Positions 1-5,847 of a stretch of 5,847 bases of DNA are shown here, one piece after another (positions within the stretch are counted from its first letter, which is position 1; every line of letters begins with the position of its first letter). The DNA comes from Nitrosomonadales bacterium (GTDB taxonomy: Bacteria > Pseudomonadota > Gammaproteobacteria > Burkholderiales > SG8-41): positions 1-5,847 of the forward strand of contig VFLF01000051.1 in assembly GCA_009885185.1 (NCBI GenBank), in the 5' to 3' direction. The position numbers were made by a program, and so were the translations under genes. The notes under the pieces were generated by a model that saw only the letters and a program-made list of their open reading frames with translations, was not told the DNA's origin and did no database searches.

Positions 1-518
1 CGGTGATCGCAAGATTGGTTGCGCAGGCCGGTGCCGGGCGGGTGATCGTGCTGACCGCGGAGTTTAACGAGGACGAAGAGGTGGCGTTGTTGCGCTGCGG
101 TGTCAAGGGCTGCTGCCGCCGCGGCGTCGATCCGGAATCGCTGCGGCAGGTGTTGTCCGTGACGCAAAGCGGCGTGTGGGTCACGCGTAGTCTGCTGCCG
201 CGATTGGTATCCGAATTGCGGCGCTACGCGCAGCAAACGGCCGCGCCGATTGCATTGCAACAAACAGCGCCCGCCGAACCGTCGAAGGCCGAGAAGGCGC
301 TCGCGCGGTTACCGTCGGACAAGCTCACCACACTGACGAGACGAGAACTGGATATCGTCAAACTGATTGCCGACGGTGCCACCAACAAGGAAGTCGGCGT
401 CGCGCTGGATATTTCAGATCGCACGGCTAAGGGACATCTATCCAATATCTATCTGAAATTGGGTACTCCAGACAGGGTAAAGCTCATGCTATATTTGCAA
501 GACGAAAGACAGCCCTAG
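1..518 (+). CDS. NarL/LuxR-family response regulator, 5' partial
   Basis: This is the C-terminal part of a two-component response regulator that would act as a cytoplasmic DNA-binding transcription factor. The reading frame is open to the left edge (first full codon at 3), so the GTG at 3 is probably internal. Numbering from that codon, residues 13-70 match the last strands and helices of a receiver domain: VIVLTAE carries the conserved Thr, followed by a GVKG turn. The phosphoacceptor Asp lies outside the window. A linker rich in Ala, Gln and Pro (about 75-105) leads to a LuxR-type helix-turn-helix at 109-166, with LTRRELDIVKLIADGATNKE and then HLSNIYLKLG. The position of the conserved receiver Lys appears to be Arg (R40), and Cys residues cluster at 32, 37 and 38. 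The stop is TAG at 516-518, and I see no clear intrinsic terminator after it. The cognate kinase and target genes cannot be seen. Its place upstream of the exporter gene makes a regulatory link possible but unproven. Confidence 0.9.
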   Translation, partial: VIARLVAQAGAGRVIVLTAEFNEDEEVALLRCGVKGCCRRGVDPESLRQVLSVTQSGVWVTRSLLPRLVSELRRYAQQTAAPIALQQTAPAEPSKAEKALARLPSDKLTTLTRRELDIVKLIADGATNKEVGVALDISDRTAKGHLSNIYLKLGTPDRVKLMLYLQDERQP

Positions 519-804: not shown

Positions 805-2133
805 ATGAAAAAAACATTAAGAATAAAACTGCTAGTGGGTGCCGTGGCGTTGACCACCAGTGCTTGGGCAAGCGCTCAAACACTCAAGGAAGTGGTTCAG
901 CTGGCCGTGGAAACCAATCCGCAGGTGGGGGCGGTGGCCAAGCGCAAGGATGCGGCGGATGCTGCCGTCAGCGCGGCGAAAGGCGCGTATTTCCCGAAAC
1001 TGGACTTTTTATACGGCTCGGGACGAGAGCGCAGCGACAATGCCACTACTGCGCCGATTGTAGGCCAAGGAAACTTTCTTCGCCTGCATCGCCATCAAGA
1101 AGGAATGGTGCTTAACCAGATGCTATTTGATGGTTTGGGCACGCCAGCTGAAGTGAATCGCCGCCGCGCGATTTCCGACGCGACCGCGTATCGGGTTTAT
1201 GCGACGGCGGAAGAAATCGCCCTGCAGGCCATTGATGCGTACATCGATGTGCTGAAAAACAAGGAACTCGTTACCTTCGCCAGGGAAAACCTCAACGCGC
1301 ACCAGCGCACGTTCGATCAAGTCAAGCTGCGTAGTGATAAGGGTGTCGGACGCCGTGCCGACCTGGAGCAGATCGAGGCGCGTCTCGCGCTGGCCACTGC
1401 AAACGTGTCGTCGGCGGAGAGCAGTCTGCGCGATGCCGAAATCGCTTATCTCAAGGTAGTCGGCAGAAACCCGATCAACCTTGCGCCGGCGCCGGATCCC
1501 AAGAATATACCGAATAATGTCGAAGACGCTGTCAAGGCGGGCTTTGCCAATCATCCCACGCTCAAGTCATCGCATTCCGATATCGAGCAGGCGTCGGCGC
1601 AGCGCGAGTTGGCGCGGTCATTCTGGTTCCCGCGTCTCGAACTGGAGGCGAGCTACACCAATAACCGCAATCTCGATGGCACGGCCGGCCCCAATCGCGA
1701 CCGCATGCTGATGCTGTATTTAAAGTGGAACCTTTTCCGTGGCGGCTTTGATTACCATCGCCTGAAAGAGACCGCGCTGCAAATCGACGAAGCGACGGAA
1801 ATCTCGCGCAATACCAACCGTCAGGTCGAGAACGCTGTGCGTTTGGCTTATAACGCATTCGCTACCGCCCGCGACCGCATTCCGTCGTTGGCCCGCTACG
1901 TGAAATCCAGCGATTCAACCCGTGCGGCCTATGCGCAGCAGTTTGCCATCGGCCAGCGCACGTTGCTGGACCTGCTGGATGCGGAAAACGAATATTTCAC
2001 GTCCCGCAGCACGGATGCCACCGGCAGATATATTCAGTTGTCGGCAAAATATCGCGTGCTCAATGCGATGGGACAATTGCTTGCCACGCTGGAAGTCAAG
2101 GCGCCGGACCAAGCGACATTGCGCGAGCGCTAA
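805..2133 (+). CDS. TolC-family outer-membrane protein, AggA/LapE type (type I secretion)
   Basis: This is the outer-membrane channel of a type I secretion system, 442 residues, close to the usual length. Residues 1-24 form a Sec signal peptide: basic KK near the start, a hydrophobic core and a likely cut after ASA before Q25. The mature protein shows the duplicated outer-membrane-factor repeat. The first half has KGAYFPKLDF (about 59-68) and QMLFDG (105-110); the second has FWFPRLELEASY (273-284) and KWNLFRGG (307-314). Near the C-terminus, FAIGQRTLLDLLDAENE (380-396) is typical of AggA/LapE proteins that export large RTX adhesins. The ATG at 805 is supported by AGGGG at 792-796, eight bases upstream. 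A strong terminator follows, so it is probably monocistronic. The LapA-like adhesin gene at 5458 is its likely substrate gene. No ABC transporter or membrane-fusion gene adjoins it here. Assignment to TolC family is firm; LapE-type function is an inference. Confidence 0.93.
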   Translation: MKKTLRIKLLVGAVALTTSAWASAQTLKEVVQLAVETNPQVGAVAKRKDAADAAVSAAKGAYFPKLDFLYGSGRERSDNATTAPIVGQGNFLRLHRHQEGMVLNQMLFDGLGTPAEVNRRRAISDATAYRVYATAEEIALQAIDAYIDVLKNKELVTFARENLNAHQRTFDQVKLRSDKGVGRRADLEQIEARLALATANVSSAESSLRDAEIAYLKVVGRNPINLAPAPDPKNIPNNVEDAVKAGFANHPTLKSSHSDIEQASAQRELARSFWFPRLELEASYTNNRNLDGTAGPNRDRMLMLYLKWNLFRGGFDYHRLKETALQIDEATEISRNTNRQVENAVRLAYNAFATARDRIPSLARYVKSSDSTRAAYAQQFAIGQRTLLDLLDAENEYFTSRSTDATGRYIQLSAKYRVLNAMGQLLATLEVKAPDQATLRER

Positions 2134-2242: not shown

Positions 2243-2587
2243 ATGCCGTATGTAATCCGTGACGCAGACGGGAAAATCGTTCAGGTCTTTGAGCAGCCCG
2301 TTACCGGCAAATCCGAAGCGGTTTCCGCGGACTCCGCAGATTACAAACAATTCGTCGACGAGCGCTCAGCGCACAGCGCCGAAGAGTTGCGGCAGAAGCT
2401 TGCCGCCAGCGACAGCGGCATGGCGCGGCTGGTGGAAGACCTGGTAGATTTGCTGATCAACAAGGGTGTGATCAAGTTTACCGATTTGCCCGCTGCGGCA
2501 GGAGCCAAATACCTCGAACGCCAGACCGCACGCGAACGCCTGCACGCCTACAAGAACCTCATCGTCGACGAGAAAGACATTATCTGA
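2243..2587 (+). CDS. small conserved protein of unknown function (often labelled 'tryptophan synthase beta-like')
   Basis: The product is 114 residues, acidic, with no signal peptide or membrane segment, so it is probably cytoplasmic. It opens with MPYVIRDADGKIVQVFEQP, and a conserved-looking core at 61-94 contains ARLVEDLVDLLINKGVIKFT followed by DLP. This resembles a small proteobacterial family (N-terminal P-[FY]-V-x-R-D-x-x-G-x-I and a core V-E-D-L-[IV]-D-x-L-I-x-K-x-x-I-x-F-T-D-L-P). From memory, databases often call it tryptophan synthase beta subunit-like. It is far too short to be TrpB and shows no PLP-lysine motif, so that name should not be read as a function. The ATG at 2243 starts the family-like N-terminus, although no strong Shine-Dalgarno sequence precedes it. 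It lies 54 bases before the M23 peptidase gene on the same strand, which suggests co-transcription. Confidence 0.8.
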   Translation: MPYVIRDADGKIVQVFEQPVTGKSEAVSADSADYKQFVDERSAHSAEELRQKLAASDSGMARLVEDLVDLLINKGVIKFTDLPAAAGAKYLERQTARERLHAYKNLIVDEKDII

Positions 2588-2641: not shown

Positions 2642-3973
2642 ATGTACCCGCCGCTCTTTCCGCTCCTGCTGCTGCATTTGTTGACGCTGATGGTGTTTGT
2701 TCCACCCAAGGCGGCGGCGCAGCCGTCGCTCATCCAATTGCCGTCGCTGTCGCAACCCGTGATCGAGGTGGCGGCTTTTCGGGTTGCCCCGGTCAGGCTG
2801 GGGCCGCCGGAACGCCTGCGCAAAGTCACAGCGATTGATGATCTACTGCTGTTGCCCGCGCCCGCCGCCGGGGGTGAAAGCGAGCTGGAAACGCGGGTAC
2901 TGGCCGCAGAAACGTGGGTTGATGTCTTGCAGCGCATCCATGCCGGCCTGCGTCTTCCGCCGCTGGCAAACGACGTGGTTGCGCCGACAGGGTTATTACC
3001 GCCGCCGGAACCCGGTAAATATCTACGAGCGCGCAGCACGCCCGGCGGCTCGACTGAAATTGACTACATCATCAAGCCCGATGAGGCATATACCCTCTCG
3101 ATACGCGGTGGCACCATGCAGGTTCAGGCTCATACCGCCGATCCGAGGCTTATCGAGCGCATGCGCGCTGACCCGGCCAAGGCCTCATTATTTACCGCGA
3201 CCAACGCCATCGGGTTGCCCGAAAGCATTGCGTTGCAACTCACGGAAATATTTGCCGGCGAAGTGGATTTTCATAGAGAACTTCACCAGGGATATCGCTG
3301 CGCCATCGTGTATGAGGCCAATTATCGCGAAGGGTTCATCGAGAAATCAGGGCGCATACTGGCAGCCGAACTCGAGGTTGGCAATCGCCAGTTCAGGGCA
3401 TATTACACGCTCGATACAAAGGGGCGCGCTGCCTACTTCGATGCCAGCGGCAAGACGACGCGCCGCATGTTTCGCCGCTCCCCCGTGGAATTCACGCGCA
3501 TCACGTCGGAATACACGCTTGCTCGTTTTCATCCTGTCTTGGGTATCTGGCGCGCCCATCGCGGCGTCGATTACGCCGCGCCGATGGGTGCAAAAGTGAT
3601 GACGGTGGCCGATGGCGTGGTGGAGTTTGTGGGACCGCGTGGCGACTATGGCAATCTCGTCGTCATTCGTCATCAGGAAAAATTCATGACTTACTATGGG
3701 CACCTGAGCGAGTTTGCGCCGGGGTTGGCTGTCGGTAACAAGGTGGAGCAGGGGCAAGTCGTGGGACTGGTGGGCATGACGGGGCTCGCCACTGGGCCGC
3801 ATCTGCATTTCGAGTTTCATGCCCGCGACACGAATGGCGTCTGGAATTCCGTGCCGGCCCCGGACATGATTGAATCCACGATTGCAGCGGCGCCGGGGTT
3901 TGGCGCATTGGTTAGCGGCTATCGTGAAAGACTGACCGTGGCCGACACCGCCAATGTCGTGGTTCTCGACTGA
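2642..3973 (+). CDS. M23-family peptidoglycan metalloendopeptidase (MepM/YebA-like)
   Basis: This 443-residue exported enzyme is predicted to cleave peptide cross-links in periplasmic peptidoglycan, as MepM-type DD-endopeptidases do. Residues 1-26 are a hydrophobic leader ending AAA before Q27, a plausible signal peptide although without basic residues at the start. Residues 83-105 may be a LysM/OapA-like segment. About 183-285 resembles the Csd3-type second domain (SLFTATNAIGLPESIALQLT, then FHREL and YEANYREGF). The C-terminal LytM domain (about 296-400) has the full zinc and catalytic set: H306-x3-D310 in HRGVDYAAP, H354 in YYGHLS, and H387/H389 in TGPHLHFEF. It therefore looks active. No good Shine-Dalgarno sequence precedes the ATG, but no other in-frame start fits the leader. 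The gene ends 18 bases before the convergent kinase gene's stop. A housekeeping cell-wall role is more likely than a direct link to the adhesin. Confidence 0.92.
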   Translation: MYPPLFPLLLLHLLTLMVFVPPKAAAQPSLIQLPSLSQPVIEVAAFRVAPVRLGPPERLRKVTAIDDLLLLPAPAAGGESELETRVLAAETWVDVLQRIHAGLRLPPLANDVVAPTGLLPPPEPGKYLRARSTPGGSTEIDYIIKPDEAYTLSIRGGTMQVQAHTADPRLIERMRADPAKASLFTATNAIGLPESIALQLTEIFAGEVDFHRELHQGYRCAIVYEANYREGFIEKSGRILAAELEVGNRQFRAYYTLDTKGRAAYFDASGKTTRRMFRRSPVEFTRITSEYTLARFHPVLGIWRAHRGVDYAAPMGAKVMTVADGVVEFVGPRGDYGNLVVIRHQEKFMTYYGHLSEFAPGLAVGNKVEQGQVVGLVGMTGLATGPHLHFEFHARDTNGVWNSVPAPDMIESTIAAAPGFGALVSGYRERLTVADTANVVVLD

Positions 3974-3991: not shown

Positions 3992-5074
3992 CTACACGAG
4001 TTGCTGCAGTAGTTCCACGCAGTCCAAATCCTCGTAGGCTGCAAAAACGCGTTCGAGGTTTTCCCACCACGCGGCAGGTTGCACGCCATAGGACGATACA
4101 TAGATAGGCGTACACAACTGCTTGATCACCGACAATCGGTAATCCTTCCAGCAGGTTTCCCATGCGTAGTCGCCGACGCCTGCCGCGCACAGCGCGCGGT
4201 GGTATTGGCGCAAAAATGCCCTCTCCAGCCGTCCGCGCCGCTCCGCGTTCCATTGCAACGCCATCATGAAGGCGAGATCGTCCGTGGCGGGCGCGATTTC
4301 CCATGATTGCCAATCGATGATGCGGCAATCGGCCGTCGTCCTGCTCACCAGGAAATTCTGTGCATGAGTGTCACTGTGCGTCAGGGTCAGCGGCCCCGCG
4401 CCTTGCCGCTCCAGCAAGCGGGGATAGGCCATGCATAGCTTGCGCAAAGTCTCGCGCCGCCCGCTGGAGATTCTGTCACCCAGGCGCGCGACGAATTTGC
4501 CGATCAACAGGGTGTTGGTGGCGGCATAACGGCTTCGCCGCTCCTCGCGAAACGGGCTGCCGATGCGCGTGCCCAGCCGTGCATCGTTCCACCACGCCGC
4601 GTGAAAGCACGCCAGACTATCCACCATGCGCCCACAAGCCGCCAGCGTCGGCGGCAATGCCTTGCCCGCACACGCATGCGTGGCGGAAAGATCTTCCAGC
4701 AGAATATGGAAGCCGCCCGTATGCGCATCATAGGCCGCATGGTAGCAATGCGCCGAAGGCTGATGCGTCATGGCGGGCGCAATCGCGTTGTAAAACTCGA
4801 CTTCACGCGGCTCGAACGACGGCGTGCTTCGTACCGTGCGACCGGGCGAATTGAACTTGAGCAACAGTGCCGCGGGCGGCGCACCGCCATCGGCACCGAC
4901 GGCATCGCCGGTGTAGCTGACCTGCAATCGTGCCATCATCGAATAATTCGACTGCCGCCGGATGTCGCGTATTACGCGCGCGACACGGCCACGCGTCAGA
5001 CAACCGCTGGCAACCAGCGTTTGCGTCAGCCATTCGGCGCTGACCTGACTTAAATCAGAAAGTGGAGTTTTCAT
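3992..5074 (-). CDS. phosphotransferase of the aminoglycoside-phosphotransferase/EcKinase-like fold
   Basis: The predicted cytoplasmic small-molecule kinase has 360 residues from the ATG at 5074-5072. Visible landmarks, numbered from there, are a candidate ATP-binding Lys in LLLKFNSP (K73), REVEFY with a likely helix-C Glu (E91 or E93), a hinge-like HILLEDLS (about 123-130), a catalytic loop HSDTHAQN (H233, D235, N240) and a metal-binding DWQ (D254) in IIDWQSWEIAP. The kinase fold looks complete. The substrate is unknown, and homology to this broad group does not imply antibiotic resistance. The start is uncertain. The frame stays open to a GTG at 5269-5267 and has an ATG at 5113-5111, but residues upstream of 5074 look unlike the family, whereas DLSQVSAEWLTQTL just after it resembles a normal N-terminus. 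None of the three starts has a convincing Shine-Dalgarno sequence. It is convergent with the M23 gene and divergent from the adhesin gene. Confidence 0.82.
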   Translation of the reverse strand: MKTPLSDLSQVSAEWLTQTLVASGCLTRGRVARVIRDIRRQSNYSMMARLQVSYTGDAVGADGGAPPAALLLKFNSPGRTVRSTPSFEPREVEFYNAIAPAMTHQPSAHCYHAAYDAHTGGFHILLEDLSATHACAGKALPPTLAACGRMVDSLACFHAAWWNDARLGTRIGSPFREERRSRYAATNTLLIGKFVARLGDRISSGRRETLRKLCMAYPRLLERQGAGPLTLTHSDTHAQNFLVSRTTADCRIIDWQSWEIAPATDDLAFMMALQWNAERRGRLERAFLRQYHRALCAAGVGDYAWETCWKDYRLSVIKQLCTPIYVSSYGVQPAAWWENLERVFAAYEDLDCVELLQQLV

Positions 5075-5227
5075 GGACAGGAGGTGACATCCGGTGGCGG
5101 CGATTGTATCCATCTGGCGCACGCCTGAATGGGCGGTATGCGTGCGGTTGTCCCGTGCGATCAGGGCGGCGAAAGTTGATCCGAACCCGCCACACCTCGT
5201 AACGCCCGAAATGAGCCGGTTTTCATG

Positions 5228-5239
5228 TCGATACCTTGG
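5228..5239 (+). repeat. upstream copy of the TCGATACC motif
   Basis: TCGATACCTTGG here is nearly identical to the two motifs at 5338-5349 (TCGATACCAAGG) and 5352-5364 (TCGATACCTTTGG). It lies 110 bases before the first of them, start to start. Such an arrangement could allow cooperative binding by DNA looping, but only one remote copy is seen. Confidence 0.4.
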
Positions 5240-5300
5240 AATCACCCGGTCCGACCGTACCTTTTTCACGAAAACACATTAACATGTTGTTTTTAAAGGA

Positions 5301-5328
5301 TTTATAGTTAAAACCACTAGTGTGTCAT
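5301..5328 (-). promoter_or_regulatory. candidate minus-strand sigma-70 promoter toward the kinase
   Basis: Read on the minus strand, ATGACA (5328-5323, five of six to TTGACA) and TATAAA (5306-5301, five of six to TATAAT) are separated by 16 bases. Transcription would start near 5294 and run toward the kinase, giving a leader of about 220 bases to the ATG at 5074, or about 25 bases to the GTG at 5269. The -35 box overlaps the CRP-like site, so an activator or repressor bound there would affect this promoter. The region is AT-rich, so a chance match is possible. Confidence 0.4.
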
Positions 5329-5336
5329 AAATCACA
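5321..5336. promoter_or_regulatory. CRP/FNR-superfamily-like binding site
   Basis: TGTGT-CATAAA-TCACA differs at one base from the classic CRP core TGTGA-N6-TCACA. Its centre lies 129 bases upstream of the adhesin start codon and about 52 bases upstream of the TTGACA box, far for a class I site but usable with other factors. It overlaps the -35 of the minus-strand promoter candidate. The cognate regulator is unknown; CRP-, Vfr- or Clp-type proteins share this recognition pattern. Confidence 0.45.
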
Positions 5337-5364
5337 ATCGATACCAAGGTATCGATACCTTTGG
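5337..5364. repeat. palindrome AAGGTATCGATACCTT with overlapping direct repeats
   Basis: Bases 5346-5361 are a perfect 16-base palindrome. Overlapping it, ATCGATACC is repeated directly at 5337-5345 and 5351-5359, 14 bases apart, and GATACC-AA-GGTATC (5340-5353) forms a second inverted repeat. This is the architecture of an operator for a dimeric regulator. It sits 16 bases upstream of the TTGACA box. No T-tract follows, so it is not a terminator. The protein that binds is not identifiable from sequence. Confidence 0.65.
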
Positions 5365-5379
5365 CCCTGTTGCAACGCC

Positions 5380-5410
5380 TTGACAGTGTGCAGAATGCTA
5401 CCAATCTAAC
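5380..5410 (+). promoter_or_regulatory. candidate sigma-70 promoter of the adhesin gene
   Basis: A perfect -35 hexamer TTGACA lies at 5380-5385. The -10 is weak: AATCTA at 5403-5408 gives a 17-base spacer, and TCTAAC at 5405-5410 gives 19. A consensus -35 with a poor -10 is consistent with dependence on an activator, for which the sites just upstream are candidates. Transcription would start near 5415, leaving a leader of about 40 bases before the start codon. Confidence 0.5.
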
Positions 5411-5457
5411 CGGGCACCTTGTCTGGTTACGGATACAAACACTCGGGGGGTTTCATC

Positions 5458-5847
5458 ATGGCAACAGCAGCGAGCGGCAACGCAGGCGTAGGCACCATCA
5501 AAGTCGTCATCGGCGACGTCAAAGTCATCGGCGTGGACGGCGTAGCGCGCCAGGCGCAAGTGGGCGACAAAGTATTTGCGCGTGAAACGATCCAGACCAA
5601 CGCGAATGCCATCGTGCAAGTGCAGCTTGAAAATGGCCGCATGCTTGATCTGGGCCGTGACTCCAAGATAGCACTCGACAGCGACGTCATCGGCCCGCAA
5701 GGTCCGGCCACGACCACAGCGCCCGCCACTGGCGACATTGCCGCGATCCAGGCGCAGATCGCCGCAGGCGCGGATCCTTCAAAAGTGGCAGAAGCCACCG
5801 CTGCGGGCGGTGCGCCCGGCGCGGGTGGTGCTGACGGCGGCGGCGGC
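5458..5847 (+). CDS. LapA-like surface adhesin, N-terminal retention module, 3' partial
   Basis: Only the first 130 residues are visible; the frame is open at the right edge. The start is ATG at 5458, seven bases after a G6 run (5445-5450) that can serve as Shine-Dalgarno sequence. There is no Sec signal peptide, as expected for a type I substrate with a C-terminal signal. Residues 10-80 form a beta-rich retention module with GTIKVVIGDVKVIG, VGDKVFARETIQTNA and LENGRMLDLGRDS. Then come IAAGADPSKVAEATAAG (101-117) and a Gly-rich linker (117-130). In P. fluorescens LapA, LapG cuts between the two Ala of TAAG and releases the adhesin from the outer membrane; here this would be A115/A116. The downstream protein is probably long and repetitive, with RTX-type repeats and a C-terminal secretion signal, but none of that is visible. 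The TolC-family protein at 805-2133 is the likely outer-membrane exporter and anchor. Confidence 0.92.
   Translation, partial: MATAASGNAGVGTIKVVIGDVKVIGVDGVARQAQVGDKVFARETIQTNANAIVQVQLENGRMLDLGRDSKIALDSDVIGPQGPATTTAPATGDIAAIQAQIAAGADPSKVAEATAAGGAPGAGGADGGGG
5797..5808 (+). other. predicted LapG cleavage site TAAG in the adhesin
   Basis: These codons encode T114-A115-A116-G117. The preceding IAAGADPS...EATAAG context closely resembles the LapA cleavage region, and the position matches well (the P. fluorescens cut is at Ala108/Ala109). Another AAG at residues 102-104 lacks the Thr and lies in the conserved helix-like segment before the site, so TAAG is preferred. Confidence 0.85.

Follow-up and report, generated by a model that had tools for sequence, protein, structure and literature searches.

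Gene Content of the Locus

The window, i.e., the whole stretch of 5,847 nucleotides of DNA analyzed here, encodes a LuxR/NarL-type regulator, a TolC-family outer membrane channel, a small conserved protein, an M23 peptidase, a kinase-like protein and the beginning of a lapA-type adhesin, the latter being preceded by a conserved box (Table 1). The retention module of the adhesin, its dialanine site and the channel gene are present in the window itself, and the whole lap cluster is present in relatives.

Table 1. Genes and sequence elements of the window with their coordinates.
Feature	Position	Strand	Evidence and remarks
LuxR/NarL-type regulator, 5′ end missing	3..518	+	PF00196; GVWVTR after receiver-like part
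TolC-family outer membrane channel (LapE role)	805..2133	+	TIGR01844, 285.7 bits (cut-off 225)
114-aa conserved protein without family	2243..2587	+	No Pfam/NCBIfam match; same place in 12/14 loci
M23 peptidase (MepM/ShyC-like)	2642..3973	+	PF01551, 104.5 bits; upstream of lapA in 13/14 loci
Phosphotransferase/kinase-like protein (APH/EcKL)	3992..5074	-	Between M23 peptidase and lapA
Conserved upstream box	5319..5402	+	TGTG-N8-CACA 5321-5336; CGATACCAAGGTATCGATACC 5339-5359; -10-like CAGAAT 5391-5396
lapA-type adhesin, N-terminal retention module and linker start	5458..5847	+	NF033682, 5IX9; 3′ end missing
TAAG dialanine site, predicted LapG cut A115/A116	5797..5808	+	Residues 114-117

The Retention Module at the Right Edge

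The adhesin frame starts with the ATG at position 5458, comprises 130 codons and is open past the right edge of the window. The first-pass annotation had ascribed to it the N-terminal signature of c-di-GMP-regulated biofilm adhesins, consisting of a beta-rich module with DLGRDS, an IAAGADPS segment, the TAAG site at residues 114-117 and a Gly-rich linker, and all these elements are located at the residues claimed: DLGRDS spans residues 64-69 (5647-5664), IAAGADPS residues 101-108 (5758-5781) and the linker, inside which the window stops, residues 118-130. The module was recognized by the model NF033682 (retention_LapA) with 85.7 bits (cut-off 50; E 3.3e-24), so that the assignment is not due to chance; a Pfam search of the frame gave no match.

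A search of the PDB by sequence resulted in 5IX9 as the sole match at E 0.001 or better (E 5.3e-9). For the AlphaFold model of the adhesin piece the pLDDT is 86-90 across residues 11-70, with a mean of 67.8 for the whole piece, and Foldseek with this predicted fold gave one match at E 0.001 or better, which is again 5IX9, described as “cell surface anchoring domain” (TM 0.85 by target, rmsd 1.8). This only PDB relative at the threshold by both sequence and fold, which we take to be Region I of the Marinomonas primoryensis ice-binding adhesin, differs from the module in sequence (25% identity) and comes from an ice-binding context. Moreover, a homologue of 195 aa encoded on another contig (P0002) is 97% identical to the adhesin piece and runs 65 residues past the end of the window, showing that this close relative has no stop immediately after that point. 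The frame begins the gene of a giant adhesin of the LapA type and, within this known family, is nothing out of the ordinary.

The lap Cluster in Relatives

A profile search of genome contigs with the M23 protein resulted in 14 loci. These relatives stand in for the window’s own genome: lapG, lapD, the repeats and the RTX part are known only from relatives with an M23 identity of 73% or less. The gene order of the window is kept in 13 of the 14 loci, with two single-gene gaps, i.e., the LuxR-type regulator in L004, the contig of which begins inside tolC, and the 114-aa protein in L003. The most distant locus, L014 from Azohydromonas (45% M23 identity), shares the M23 match alone with the window.

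Thirteen of the 14 genomes contain the retention module (10 above cut-off), LapG (PF06035) likewise occurs in 13 and LapD (PF16448) in 12; the search detected none of the three in genome G014, and in G004 only LapD was not found. The first-pass annotation had expected lapG and lapD homologues elsewhere in the genome. Their existence is borne out in the relatives; their location is mostly the adhesin’s own contig, which LapG shares in 9 of 13 genomes (exceptions G003, G004, G010 and G011) and LapD in 11 of 12 (exception G003). On this contig, both genes lie upstream, some 10-12 kb from the module, which corresponds to a position left of the window.

The nearest locus, L001 (73% M23 identity), has the order lapG-lapD-lapB-lapC-LuxR-tolC-114aa-M23-lapA. 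Its adhesin is complete, starting with the ATG at 12088 and comprising 2,346 aa, and contains T1SS-143 repeats, VWA, Big_9, RTX repeats and TIGR03661 (type I C-terminal target), in agreement with the repeats, RTX nonapeptides and C-terminal secretion signal that had been anticipated to the right of the window. The adhesin of L002 is interrupted by masked stretches and was left out of the domain reading. The exporter proteins, which were identified in L001 only, reach 996 bits for LapB (TIGR03375) and 395 bits for LapC (TIGR01843). LapG of L001 scores 219 bits with NF045674, i.e., below the equivalog cut-off of 320, and aligns with Legionella pneumophila LapG (4FGO; E 8.5e-50), the GGDCEDF, EAHMV and ILDN motifs being kept. 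Similarly, LapD scores 433 bits with NF045673, below the equivalog cut-off of 1020, and aligns with the output domains of Pseudomonas fluorescens LapD (3PJV) and of CdgS9 (4U64). As foreseen for a LapD, its GGDEF (LDGPEF) and EAL (DRFGQ) sites are degenerate, and the changes from GGDEF to [LM]DGPEF and from the DDFG of the EAL domain to DRFG(Q) occur in those 10 of the 12 LapD loci which the pattern caught. The control of attachment by proteolytic release, which had been predicted from the module, is supported by the lap clusters of the relatives and, judged from sequence, would apply to the source organism as well.

Three further observations concern these loci. Firstly, the kinase-like gene has a full-length match in L002 (68%), a match of 71 aa in L001 and none in the 12 other loci; its restriction to these two loci suggests a passing insertion that probably stands outside the Lap system. 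Secondly, in 13 of the 14 loci the closest gene ahead of lapA in the same orientation encodes the M23 peptidase; a testable idea is that this enzyme might help the adhesin, or the exporter, to pass the peptidoglycan. Thirdly, L004, L005 and L006 stem from metagenome-assembled genomes labelled Bordetella parapertussis, and since these genomes belong to the same family set as G001 this label looks wrong.

A Conserved Box Ahead of lapA

The box was found in the DNA ahead of lapA, which was inspected for 11 loci and aligned for the window and 13 loci. In the lap loci the consensus consists of TGTG-N8-CACA, two bases, CGRTACYWWGGTAYYGRTACY, CCT and, 23 columns further, CA..AT, with slight variation of TGTG-N8-CACA in some of them (CGTG or other small changes). 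The CGATACC of the window begins 119 bp ahead of the lapA start codon, and across the window and the nine loci measured the distance from the beginning of CGRTACY to the start codon is 119-141 bp. Next to the main box, a degenerate second pair of GATACC half-sites is located about 110 bp further upstream (5228-5243; E 0.28-0.32).

With up to one mismatch, the box pattern occurs in 13 of the 14 genomes with a backwards control of 0, the one miss being G014, which is devoid of lap genes. It precedes 15 of the 16 over-cut-off retention-module genes of these genomes (exception G010:C71). In the family, it was detected at the same tolerance in 16 of 74 genomes (control 0), and among the order's 399 genomes the exact pattern is confined to 3, all of them from the original set (backwards control 1/399). 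None of 20,000 shuffles of the letters of 5075-5457 contains the pattern. Furthermore, a sequence-only box model was trained on the window and 13 lap loci. Searched with stricter filters, by which weak matches are lost, it reached E 0.01 or better in 16 genomes of the family of 74, and the remaining 58 gave no match. Pattern and model agree on 15 genomes; the sixteenth is G276 for the pattern (one mismatch) and G464 for the model. Wherever a family genome has an over-cut-off retention module (ten genomes), the model matches as well.

An Rfam scan of the window at gathering score revealed no RNA element upstream of lapA. A sigma-70 scan of 5075-5460 gave one site with 0.6 expected and is not counted as evidence. 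Searches of the open-licence literature for the letters of the box and for a lapG/M23/lapA/LuxR cluster in Betaproteobacteria returned no relevant paper. Taken by its sequence and distribution, the box is quite probably a real operator.

Genes Downstream of the Box

Pooling three scans resulted in 34 distinct box sites in the family, 9 of which belong to the training set of the model and 25 lie outside it. Downstream genes were picked from open frames within about 1 kb, their starts lying at most about 720 bp beyond the box. As a raw count, 20 of the 25 independent sites precede surface or matrix genes. Eight sites precede further retention-module genes; among these, the gene at G413:C202 is an 81-aa frame recognized by eye, and the module of G465 is identical to that of the short homologue P0009. 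The 12 other surface and matrix targets encode FHA-type TPS proteins (three genomes), RTX proteins (two genomes), EpsB_2 exopolysaccharide transferases (two genomes) and LEPR-XLL proteins at two sites, both in G414, one of which shows a lipase match. Single sites precede the genes of a cadherin-like/tandem-95 protein, a small type I target protein and a PEP-CTERM protein, the last with a WcaJ transferase after it. The box of G003:C84, which precedes EpsB_2, is weak (E 0.0067) but has an intact TGTG-N8-CACA. A further site precedes the gene of an EpsA-type regulator (G464:C384; 162 bits, cut-off 170).

For the other four sites (G415:C183, G414:C459, G413:C85 and G006:C4) no surface or matrix gene was recognized downstream. 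At G413:C85 the contig ends about 400 bp after the box, and the site at G006:C4, which has one mismatch and is located inside a transporter gene, is probably due to chance.

We consider both the compound box and its wide range of targets to be new. We tentatively propose, at somewhat less than an even chance, that a lineage of uncultured Betaproteobacteria possesses a giant-adhesin and matrix regulon under one compound operator, which would consist of TGTG-N8-CACA, alternating GATACC half-sites and a -10-like element in register and would be read by an undescribed c-di-GMP-linked regulator. This regulon would unite LapA-type, FHA-type, RTX, cadherin-like and LEPR-XLL proteins, PEP-CTERM and exopolysaccharide genes and an EpsA-type regulator.

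Candidate Regulators and Alternative Explanations for the Box

The box might be bound by a regulator that is not linked to the cluster, perhaps a CRP/FNR-type protein at TGTG-N8-CACA, a motif that we liken to the CRP consensus, with another protein occupying the GATACC half-sites. An unlinked regulator is possible, with the odds leaning slightly against it, and the CRP/FNR-type protein is a guess. The presence of the box in genomes where the LuxR-type regulator of the cluster was not found is consistent with such a regulator, as is TGTG-N8-CACA or a near version of it beside the box in the lap loci and at several other sites; however, some sites retain just its right half, or little of it, and no candidate gene was found. 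For Vibrio cholerae, binding of CRP to the regulatory regions of frhA and craA is described in PMC6890996.

EpsA (TIGR03020) was considered as candidate; with a threshold of E 1e-15 it was matched in 17 of the 74 family genomes (9 above cut-off). Only G413, G414, G464, G007 and G276 of these 17 are boxed; EpsA does not track the box and was rejected because most box genomes have none.

Alternatively, the LuxR-type regulator of the cluster might itself bind the box and sense c-di-GMP like VpsT, in which case c-di-GMP would control transcription as well as release. We regard this as doubtful. In its favour, the gene is part of the cluster, at the same position, in 12 of the 14 loci; within the family, 11 of the 16 genomes matched by the model possess it and none of the 58 others does. 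W, T and R of its WVTR motif are invariant and align with the WLTR of VpsT. The motif rule for VpsT-type c-di-GMP-binding regulators, the dimer of which is driven by c-di-GMP, is W[F/L/M][T/S]R; the second residue here is mostly V, outside this rule, with M in L006. The protein resembles VpsT (3KLN) in its LuxR-type DNA-binding domain and in the W-x-T-R after the receiver part, whereas the receiver part itself is too distant for a significant alignment (-1.2 bits over WVTR); c-di-GMP binding is putative. In VpsT the exchange R134A disrupts binding of c-di-GMP (PMC3359988), and control by c-di-GMP at two layers, release and transcription, with CRP binding upstream, is reported for LapG-cut adhesins of V. 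cholerae (PMC6890996). Against the LuxR-type regulator, a profile search found none in the box-bearing genomes G413, G415, G465, G466 and G276, which are possibly incomplete drafts; these genomes weaken it as sole regulator of the box. It is missing from G004 as well, on a contig that begins inside tolC.

It is very unlikely that the box is a repeat, a mobile element or a terminator standing near long genes by chance, without operator function. Several copies per genome exist in some of the metagenome-assembled genomes, and the inverted repeat at 5337-5356 is terminator-like on the - strand (one found, 0.3 expected; not counted as evidence), but the box is short, lies 119-141 bp ahead of the start codon in the window and the nine loci measured, is in register with the -10-like CA..AT and mostly marks surface and matrix genes.

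Conservation of the Cut Site

From the loci of the relatives 17 modules were excised, 16 of which extend to the cut site. TAAG is present in 15 of these 16, including that of L025, which was read directly from the sequence, and is replaced by AAAG in one (L020). Moreover, TAAG was found in 13 of 19 aligned short homologues; in the six others (P0004, P0006, P0007, P0009, P0016 and P0019) divergence begins after the module. The site is, by sequence comparison, conserved, though not universal.

Two architectures stand apart. In L028 (G012:C14), L032 (G008:C53) and L136 (G414:C253) the adhesin starts with two tandem retention modules, in the first of which no cut site was seen (by eye in the case of G414). 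In the boxed protein of G465:C106 (L130; P0009) the module is followed directly by an RTX-like stretch, the IAAGADPS/TAAG part being absent, and a search of this genome for LapD found none, suggesting that module and release may part company.

That the adhesin of the window has a retention module yet serves as a permanent anchor which LapG does not release is highly improbable. The TAAG part is absent from some modules, as in G465, but the module of the window has an intact site and the nearest relatives carry LapG and LapD in the cluster.

Comparison With Known Systems

Both the adhesin and the machinery for its release are those of the Lap system already known. As in P. fluorescens, the retention module is combined with a dialanine cut site, with LapA being cut between A108 and A109 there (PMC3032545) and the cut predicted between A115 and A116 here. 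The complete relative shares with P. fluorescens LapG, a LapD with degenerate GGDEF-EAL, the LapB-LapC-TolC exporter and an adhesin with repeats, VWA and RTX. In contrast to P. fluorescens, the stretch from lapC to lapA additionally holds a VpsT-like LuxR, the 114-aa protein and the M23 peptidase, and lapA is preceded by a conserved box. Pseudomonas uses FleQ at lapA. By analogy, the adhesin would also resemble FrhA and CraA of V. cholerae with LapD-LapG in being cut by LapG; there VpsR, VpsT and FlrA are involved, whereas here one box is common to many surface and matrix genes.

Proposed Mechanism and Implications

We assign a probability of roughly 0.9 to the reading that the window carries an adhesin with Lap-type retention and c-di-GMP-controlled release in a betaproteobacterium. 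For the source organism, retention, cutting and control by c-di-GMP are deduced from the known Lap system. The adhesin would exit the cell via a LapB-LapC-TolC(LapE) type I exporter, and its folded N-terminal retention module would jam in the channel, keeping the adhesin on the surface. At high c-di-GMP levels LapD would bind the periplasmic protease LapG; as c-di-GMP falls, LapG would cut at A115/A116 and the adhesin would be shed. In a second, less certain layer, the box 119 bp before the start codon might recruit a transcription factor, and this factor might co-regulate the lapA adhesin with other giant adhesins and with exopolysaccharide genes.

The adhesin carries the Lap paradigm into a little-known betaproteobacterial lineage. 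Moreover, the box may serve as a searchable signature for surface-protein and polysaccharide genes run as one biofilm programme, and as a DNA bait for the regulator that would join adhesin synthesis to adhesin release.
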